From a virus: a stretch of 44,348 nucleotides of DNA. The stretch spans positions 1 to 44,348 of the IMG/VR virus record IMGVR_UViG_3300042691_010586; one strand, given 5' to 3'. Each line of letters begins with the position of its first letter. The stretch's first letter is position 1. The notes beneath the pieces are model-generated. The model searched no databases and was not told the origin of the DNA. It was given only the letters and a program-made list of their open reading frames with translations. Position numbers and translations under genes: made by a program. Positions 30,576 through 32,339 of the stretch are shown piece after piece.

Positions 30576-32339
30576 TTAGATATTTAAAAGAACATAAGCT
30601 GAACCAGATGAAGCAGAGAATGAATCAGAATCTGCAGTCAAACCAGCCCTTGTATCGTAATTAATAGTATTAGCTATAGAATCTGTTATAACAACTATAG
30701 CACCTCCACCACCTGCACCGCCTCTTTTTCCTGCTCCTCCAGTAACTGCTGGAGCACCTTTGCCCGTATTAACTCCATCATTTACGCCACCAGCACCCCC
30801 TACCCAGTGACCATTTGGGTTTGCATGAGAAGTGGGAGCTACGTGGTGATGATGCCAATTATTAGCGTGCTGTTCACTCGTTCCTCCAGCATGGATAGCT
30901 GGTTGATGGTAATTACTATGGCCATTATGAAGGGCTGGGTGATGATCAGGCTTGTGAGTATGAGAATGTCCAGGAAGACCAAAATGCGCATGAGCATGGC
31001 CATCATGACCGCCAAAAGAACCGTGCCACCAACGACTTCTATGGTATCCATTTCCAGATGGTTCATACGCATTGTGGTGTCCATTGGGTTTCTGGTGATT
31101 GTGAGGAAAACCATGATGATGACTTACTTGCCAATAAGCATGCCACCACCAGCCAGGATCGTTTCCGCCTATTGTTCCCCAGTGATGAAGGCCACCATGT
31201 GGACCGTCATTATGTGGGCTATGATAGCTACCACCATGATGATGGTGAGGAGTTGCATGGTGGTGAGGAGTTGTGTGGTGATGAGGAGTTCCATGGTGAT
31301 GAGGAGTAGTGTGATGACCCCCATTTACATGATACAATTGTCCTTTATATGTATGGGCTGTATGGTGGTGATTTACGTGTTGTTGAACGTGTTGTTGAAC
31401 GTGTTGTTGAGCGTGAGCTCTGGTTGCACTTCCGTGTCTATCTGAATAATTAGTAAAATGGTTATGATGATTATGATTTCTGGCATCTGGATTTGCATGT
31501 GTTGTTGGAGCTACGTGATAAGCTAAGTCCGGTGCCTTTGTGCCATTTGCGCCAGTCGTACCTGCAGAACCAGATGATCCTGCTGAACCAGCAGAACCAG
31601 ATCTTCCTATTGAAATTATTTTTCCTGATCCAACTATTGTTTTTGCAAAAATAGCTACTACACCACCGCCTGCACCTCCGACTCCACCAGCTCCACCAGG
31701 ACCAGCGGTTCCATTAGCATTGCCTGCCGATGCTGGATTTCCTTTTCCTCCTGGCTGATTTACGGAGAGTCTATTTGGAGAGCCAACTGGCCCATCTGTT
31801 CCAGCTGCTCCAGCTTTTCCTGGCCAAGAGTCAGAAGCGGTTAGAGCAGGAGTTGTTGTGCCAGTAGTACCAGTTGTTCCTTTGGAGCCTCCACCTATTT
31901 TAACAAAACCATTTGTAGGATCTGCAAAAACTCCACCTGTAAGATTATTTATATTTTTATATAAAAATGTTGGAAGAACTGTTACTGCGGGATTTGAACC
32001 TCCACCGCCTTGCCCGCCTATTCTGTAGGTAATTGTAGAAGTTGTATTTCCTGCTACTGTACCATCGGAAATATCAGATGCTGACTCTCCGACTGTTCCA
32101 GAAGAAACTGAGCCCATTCCAATATGGCCATTTAGGGTTAGTGTTCCCTTAACAAAGACTCTAAAACCATTTGTTAGAAGTACTCCGTTTGAAGTAACTT
32201 CTAAATTATTATAATACATATCAGATGTTAAAGTTGTTGTACTGTTAATGTACCCATTTCCATCTAATCCCGTTCCGTAAATAGAGTCATTTCCAGCTCT
32301 TTGAACAGTTTGTTTATTGGCGCGAACTATTCCTGTCAT
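30576..32339 (-). CDS. Histidine-rich glycine-rich fibre protein (587 residues)
   Basis: I start at ATG 32339 (MTGIVRANKQTVQ), because the paralogue at 33052 starts MSGISRLNAPSQ and both reach DxIYGTGxDG at the same spacing; a frame extension to 32402 adds an unlikely leader. Order: N-terminal beta module (residues ~18-110), Gly-rich collagen-like segment (~115-265, GGAGGVGGAGGGVVAIFAK), a histidine-rich domain (~270-515) with about 66 His by my count and repeats such as TPHHH and QQHV, then a second Gly-rich module (GGAGKRGGAGGGGAIVVI). The His domain is bounded by near-repeats HVAPTTHANP and HVAPTSHANP. It very probably binds metal ions (Zn, Fe, Ni or Cu), stabilising a long fibre or sticking to surfaces. 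Codon use in the repeats is CAT/CAC mixed. Confidence 0.7.
   Translation of the reverse strand: MTGIVRANKQTVQRAGNDSIYGTGLDGNGYINSTTTLTSDMYYNNLEVTSNGVLLTNGFRVFVKGTLTLNGHIGMGSVSSGTVGESASDISDGTVAGNTTSTITYRIGGQGGGGSNPAVTVLPTFLYKNINNLTGGVFADPTNGFVKIGGGSKGTTGTTGTTTPALTASDSWPGKAGAAGTDGPVGSPNRLSVNQPGGKGNPASAGNANGTAGPGGAGGVGGAGGGVVAIFAKTIVGSGKIISIGRSGSAGSAGSSGSAGTTGANGTKAPDLAYHVAPTTHANPDARNHNHHNHFTNYSDRHGSATRAHAQQHVQQHVQQHVNHHHTAHTYKGQLYHVNGGHHTTPHHHGTPHHHTTPHHHATPHHHHGGSYHSPHNDGPHGGLHHWGTIGGNDPGWWWHAYWQVSHHHGFPHNHQKPNGHHNAYEPSGNGYHRSRWWHGSFGGHDGHAHAHFGLPGHSHTHKPDHHPALHNGHSNYHQPAIHAGGTSEQHANNWHHHHVAPTSHANPNGHWVGGAGGVNDGVNTGKGAPAVTGGAGKRGGAGGGGAIVVITDSIANTINYDTRAGLTADSDSFSASSGSAYVLLNI
31233..31320 (-). 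repeat. 18-nt tandem repeat encoding TPHHH units
   Basis: Units at 31251-31268, 31269-31286 and 31287-31304, with degenerate units at both ends, share AGT...TGGTGATGAGG on the plus strand and encode repeats of [T/A/G]TPHHH on the minus strand. Tandem copies may change number by slippage, altering the His content of the fibre. Confidence 0.75.
31375..31410 (-). repeat. 12-nt perfect tandem repeat, three copies, encoding QQHV
   Basis: ACGTGTTGTTGA occurs three times without change (31375-31386, 31387-31398, 31399-31410, plus strand). On the minus strand it encodes QQHV repeats inside the histidine-rich domain. Confidence 0.85.

Follow-up and report, generated by a model that had tools for sequence, protein, structure and literature searches.

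The DNA analysed here, referred to below as the window, comprises positions 1 to 44,348 of IMG/VR virus record IMGVR_UViG_3300042691_010586. On its minus strand lies a gene for a glycine-rich protein with a giant histidine-rich loop, which is probably a tail-tip adhesin and is followed by a set of genes that includes a 2-oxoglutarate (2OG)-Fe(II) oxygenase and a flavin-dependent halogenase (Table 1). An earlier sequence-only reading of the window had singled out the His-rich region; the linkage to halogenase and oxygenase was absent from it.

The histidine-rich loop and its scaffold

Residues 273-516 of the adhesin contain 66 His in 244 positions (binomial P = 9e-69), and the protein outside this region has a single His. 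Across the 28 other proteins of the window, His makes up 1.16% of residues, and their densest 60-residue stretch has nine. The sequence-only reading had described a His-rich domain between two Gly-rich modules, bounded by HVAPTxHANP peptides; our analysis agrees on the count, the modules and the borders (HVAPTTHANP at 275-284, HVAPTSHANP at 499-508), and places the domain in a tail-associated adhesin. The His codons of the adhesin are mixed (40 CAT, 27 CAC); thus, the His richness is not merely a DNA repeat. The TPHHH and QQHV arrays noted earlier do exist as DNA repeats, but are limited to the window sequence and a few relatives: they are missing from the seven closest relatives, and L030 and L037 contain arrays akin to them. 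Likewise, the Trp-rich stretches are present in the window but are no family feature. A 212-aa antisense open reading frame (ORF; 30807-31445, plus strand) overlying the His region is probably no gene, as it is Met/Val-rich because CAT and CAC read as ATG and GTG on the opposite strand.

The AlphaFold2 model of the adhesin has a confident beta and Gly-rich scaffold and presents the His part as one long loop (residues 285-499; predicted local distance difference test, pLDDT, about 30) with paired stems, short strands being predicted at both border peptides. HxH motifs are present in what this monomer prediction shows as a low-confidence loop; the model has no fibre shaft and lends no support to the needle envisaged in the sequence-only reading, and we found nothing akin to the axial HxH fibre of T4 gp37 with which that reading had compared the domain. 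A second prediction, for the short-loop relative L131, was uninformative (mean pLDDT 39). The best VIA-align neighbour of the window model is a beta-helix bactofilin (Z 10.2, root-mean-square deviation 2.0 Å, 82 residues), S16 gp38 not being among the compared chains. As this match spans model range 24..586, it suggests a beta core built from both ends of the protein, from which the Gly-rich parts and the loop extend. Foldseek against the PDB gave no match to the model at E <= 0.001, and searching solved structures with the adhesin sequence gave chance matches only. Collagen-like proteins of giant viruses, met in a Foldseek search of viral models, were rejected as kin, the match being one of Gly-rich composition (template modelling score 0.18).

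No Pfam or PHROGs family matched the window adhesin above cut-off; the collagen triple helix repeat (PF01391) scores 15.1 bits, under its gathering score of 27.2, and reaches 30.2 bits in the relative L012. An edited query modelled on L012 matches Halorubrum virus HRTV-15 in its 'putative adhesin' (50 aa, E = 4e-4), which links the window protein to that family indirectly. Relatives of the HRTV-15 adhesin are present in 37 hafunavirus records, and the family has been implicated in determining hafunavirus host range (PMC8651126). As in hafunavirus-type Gly-rich adhesins, Gly-rich motifs alternate with hypervariable segments, and genes at 34055-37144 and 24794-25429 of the window match tail fibre and collar families. 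Judging from these relatives, the protein is probably a Gly-rich adhesin of the tail tip, with distant kinship to the host-range adhesins of hafunaviruses.

Conservation and exchange of the loop

Full-length relatives of the adhesin were found in seven IMG/VR contigs, and further ones by two alignment-seeded scans. A tblastn search of 50,697 GenBank phage records with the window adhesin (at 1e-5) and the His core gave no match, which is partly explained by the low-complexity filter masking the core, and no relative was found in bacterial and archaeal genome contigs (one genome per species). The adhesin group is known here from metagenomic virus contigs alone.

In the seven closest relatives, His accounts for 27-30% of the loop. 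Within the core subfamily (eight sequences), 35 of the 66 His-bearing ungapped columns are invariant for His, and the conserved core reads HNHHNH..SDRH / HHGG..H.PHNDGPHGG.HHW / WHA / PH.HQKPNGHH / HGS.GGHDGH.HAH.G.P.H.HTH. In codon comparisons of close pairs, the ratio of non-synonymous to synonymous substitution (dN/dS) in the loop lies between 0.03 and 0.25 wherever synonymous sites are unsaturated. The pair L012/L022 has 50 His in common, 17 of them with synonymous changes, against one change from His to another residue. Strong purifying selection acts on the conserved His core.

Other pairs differ much more in the loop than around it: synonymous distance (pS) is 0.78 in the loop and 0.21 in the scaffold for L017/L018, and 0.74 and 0.30, respectively, for L082/L085. 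Loop distances so far above those of the scaffold fit recombinational exchange of the loop. The loops of about 56 adhesins can be sorted into 15 groups, alike in composition only and each with 15-40% His. Delimiting loops by His density biases these values upwards, yet nearly all halogenase-linked adhesins have such a loop. The sequence-only reading had made conservation of His number and spacing a test of its proposal: both are kept in the core subfamily, whereas in the wider family density is kept and spacing is not. Trp and Tyr are missing from several loops (L131, L151), which leaves His as the constant element. Repeats of other kinds occur in some loops, namely NPTGHAH in tandem in L148, AHDGGxPAHDAYTPG in L063 and GPDVVTGH.QHGEG in L053. 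In some members the adhesin carries a fused Lcl_C-type domain, at the N terminus in L039 and L044 and at the C terminus in L126 (PF07603 is below cut-off in L039). L090 (1452-2324), like L019, encodes a collar-type tail protein with HTHTLGSHTHTLGSHTH repeats, a second His-rich loop in the same phage.

Linked halogenase and oxygenase genes

Downstream of the adhesin the genes run in the order 76-aa ORF, 140-aa ORF, oxygenase, more small ORFs, halogenase and 258-aa ORF, and the block that includes the upstream paralogue, the adhesin, the small ORFs, both enzymes and the gene at 25940 stays together in distant members. The oxygenase has an iron triad (HYD at 120-122, distal His at 169-176). Among 80 halogenases, GxGxxG and WxWxIP are present in all, EPLE[AS]T in 76 and the Lys79 pattern in 31, the window enzyme included. 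Additional 2OG-Fe(II) oxygenases lie between adhesin and halogenase in a distant group (L053, L054, L055, L058, L063), and two halogenase genes occur on each of two phage contigs, G012 (that of L031) and that of L134/L139.

Both enzymes accompany 23 of 23 His-rich adhesins in the adhesin-seeded set, as against one of nine His-poor ones. To escape the circularity of that set, a second search was seeded from the halogenase, giving 42 clusters at 95% identity, 41 of them with at least 3 kb of upstream sequence. Within 3.5 kb upstream, 38 of these 41 loci contain a Gly-rich ORF whose His density reaches 13 or more per 60 aa; downstream on the halogenase strand, none of 37 does. Among the exceptions, the adhesin of L139-142 is His-rich (31 His) and adjoins the halogenase on the opposite strand, convergently, and that of L143 has a short His-rich loop; L144 is considered below. 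What the computations establish is the His-rich loop itself, its conservation and selection, its apparent exchange as a module, and how tightly it is linked to two enzyme genes.

Upstream of the adhesin lies a short Gly-rich paralogue in two frames. Among 63 distinct copies of this gene, six are shifted (window, L005, L006, L017, L018, L032), and all six have CGG-AGG, a tandem of rare-type Arg codons, exactly at the shift, which falls at two different positions in the gene; of the in-frame copies, 55 lack CGG-AGG there and two have it. To judge from these sequences, the shift looks like programmed +1 frameshifting.

Table 1. Features of the adhesin gene and its surroundings in the window.
Feature	Coordinates	Strand	Basis or remarks
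Probable Gly-rich adhesin with giant His-rich loop, 587 aa	30576..32339	-	ORF translation, relatives, AlphaFold2
N-terminal beta module (YGTGxDG...SDMYYNNL...NGFRVFVKxTLTLNG), residues about 20-87	32079..32282	-	part matching hafunavirus adhesins
First Gly-rich / collagen-like stretch, residues about 111-272	31524..32009	-	
His-rich loop, residues 273-516, 66 His/244	30792..31523	-	
Border peptide HVAPTTHANP (275-284); predicted stem strands 272-281	31488..31517	-	sequence and AlphaFold2
Border peptide HVAPTSHANP (499-508); predicted stem strands 503-512	30816..30845	-	sequence and AlphaFold2
QQHV tandem repeat, 12-bp unit	31375..31415	-	DNA repeat confirmed
TPHHH tandem repeat, 18/36-bp unit	31240..31317	-	DNA repeat confirmed
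Second Gly-rich stretch and C-terminal strands, residues 517-587	30579..30791	-	
76-aa ORF, conserved downstream neighbour	30328..30558	-	
140-aa ORF, conserved downstream neighbour	29909..30331	-	
2OG-Fe(II) oxygenase	29337..29912	-	PF13640 3e-11, 44.5 bits vs 27; nearest solved structures are prolyl 4-hydroxylases / procollagen-proline dioxygenase
231-aa ORF, common to L012/L020/L022 group	28227..28922	-	
Flavin-dependent (tryptophan) halogenase	26718..28226	-	PF04820 4e-96, 322.9 bits vs 21; GxGxxG, WxWxIP, Lys79, EPLExT
258-aa ORF, conserved after halogenase	25940..26716	-	phrog_7084
Short Gly-rich paralogue, same N-terminal module as adhesin; two frames joined by +1 shift at CGGAGG (32699-32704)	32341..33052	-	

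Interpretation and comparison with known systems

The explanation that we prefer, with slightly less than even confidence, is that of a distal tail adhesin whose hypervariable His loop likely coordinates metal and is matured by the linked enzymes. Strands of the adhesin would build a beta core from which Gly-rich extensions, collagen-like or of polyglycine type, depart; at their far end would sit one hypervariable loop of about 215 residues, its base held by the two HVAPTxHANP stem peptides. This loop would be the element that contacts the host, evolving and recombining faster than the scaffold while retaining a high imidazole density throughout. Its exposed His might coordinate divalent metal ions, bridge to metal-bearing or anionic groups of the host surface, or both, and during assembly the loop and the Gly/Pro-rich stalk might be matured by the prolyl-hydroxylase-like oxygenase and the flavin halogenase. 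Metal binding by the loop is probable and modification by the linked enzymes possible, both having less support than the adhesin role. The narrower proposal that the loop and stalk are the natural substrate of both enzymes, giving a chemically modified, metal-binding receptor-binding surface, we consider doubtful. If the loop itself were halogenated in all members, the target would have to be His, given the loops that lack both Trp and Tyr; Trp as a constant target is ruled out, many loops being without it.

Several observations weigh against the preferred explanation. The 9.6-kb contig of L144 has a halogenase and no adhesin, L054 combines both enzymes with a His-poor loop, and His-rich neighbours are lacking in eight cultured phages whose halogenases are more distant. 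The statistical support for the linkage (P = 9e-7 by Fisher's test) ignores kinship, as the loci are related and the His-poor controls distant, and the linkage could reflect operon inheritance within one phage group. Finally, AlphaFold2 is uninformative on the fold of the loop.

Among the alternatives, it is conceivable, if somewhat improbable, that the enzymes act elsewhere, on a host surface glycan or lipid or on a small molecule, and that their association with the adhesin reflects operon inheritance in one large phage clade. The whole block is kept together across distant members, as such inheritance would have it, and related halogenases of cultured phages occur in other contexts; in HTVC008M, for example, the halogenase sits between an oxygenase and the terminase. 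Phages of marine and fresh waters often carry halogenase genes; the cyanophage gene prnA has been tied to antibiotic production, a role called speculative (PMC2984593). A typical cyanophage identity is not supported for our contigs, as psbA was found in none of 14 large ones. Against inheritance alone, the adhesin of L139-142 remains adjacent to the halogenase although on the opposite strand, and the loop sequence has been replaced while its composition was kept. Moreover, five of the eight cultured phages have genes of the tail fibre or of Gly-rich/collagen-like type close to the halogenase: tail-fibre, adhesin-tip, Gly-rich or collagen-like genes in S-SRM01, Syn9, DSL-LC01 and S-H38, and genes for tail-fibre assembly in P-SSM2. 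Syn9 (L075, 2442-10581) has two halogenases beside Gly-rich tail-tip-like proteins, and that of S-SRM01 (L077, 6959-11567) is flanked by a tail fibre and a 'gp37-gp38 adhesin tip complex'; to judge from these two, the link to the tail tip may extend to other phage halogenases. We found no earlier mention of phage halogenases with tail-fibre adhesins in the open literature, most subscription papers lying outside its reach.

An unlikely alternative, though one with several points in its favour, is a metal tip of the Ferrojan-horse type, in which the loop carries iron, zinc or copper and docks on receptors for metal or siderophore uptake, the enzymes being unrelated to it. Many H-x-H and HHH motifs are conserved in the core, and several loop families contain Cys pairs besides (IHAPCC, L128-L138). 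There are also precedents in the HxH iron sites of T4 gp37, tail-fibre iron having been proposed to reach siderophore receptors (PMC11705849), and in the zinc-binding jaw proteins of Nereis (PMC13120676). Such a tip leaves the company of halogenase and oxygenase unexplained, however, and His spacing is not fixed across loop families.

The same objection from the enzymes applies to a pH switch, which we regard as improbable. Imidazole is protonated near pH 6, and with 66 His beside eight Lys+Arg and eight Asp+Glu the loop would undergo a steep change in charge there that might trigger binding or release; however, no ecological cause of a drop in pH is visible, and the marine-like group L053/L055 is acidic instead. 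That the loop is a low-complexity spacer of little function, expanded through its composition as the tandem repeats of several members (QQHV and TPHHH in the window, NPTGHAH in L148) might suggest, is very improbable, being largely refuted by the codon comparison, with dN/dS well under 1 and synonymous His codon changes, and by the invariant, non-repetitive core (e.g. PHNDGPHGG, KPN).

If the preferred explanation of an enzyme-matured His loop is true, phages would vary receptor binding through chemistry besides sequence. Modified or not, a loop for receptor binding that keeps its composition while its sequence is replaced is unusual. The loop could also tie phage adsorption to metals in the water. 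The linkage to the adhesin gives viral halogenases a concrete substrate candidate and makes the question of their substrate directly testable.

The window adhesin differs from the hafunavirus adhesins (HRTV-15 gp33, HF1/HF2 group) in its His-rich loop, which they lack (P0002 has none), and in its enzyme genes, no halogenase or oxygenase having been seen within 3 kb downstream of theirs. With T-even gp38 of Salmonella phage S16, which has a beta-helix core, Gly-rich extensions and distal hypervariable loops (PMC6851490), it shares a likeness of plan, not family membership: the loops of gp38 are short and no sequence match was found, whereas the window adhesin has one loop of about 215 residues with 28% His. 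The T-even gp38 attachment helices carry conserved Trp, and by reading we found none in the N-terminal 90 residues of the window adhesin. The T4 gp37 tip and the fibre of alterophage R22Y (PMC11705849) likewise bear His pairs, at 6-7 axial sites of a trimeric fibre that recognises the host; the window adhesin has a 66-His loop and no predicted fibre fold. The Nereis proteins Nvjp-1 and Nai11527, His- and Gly-rich components of a halogenated material that bind zinc via imidazole (PMC13120676), are an analogy only, being unrelated animal proteins. The window halogenase belongs to the same enzyme family as VirX1 of cyanophage Syn10 (6qgm, E = 1e-41) and other virus-encoded 'PrnA' halogenases; VirX1 has been characterised in vitro on artificial substrates, where its scope is unusual, and its active site is large and open (PMC8407142). 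The window enzyme differs in that its clade is tied to His-rich adhesins.
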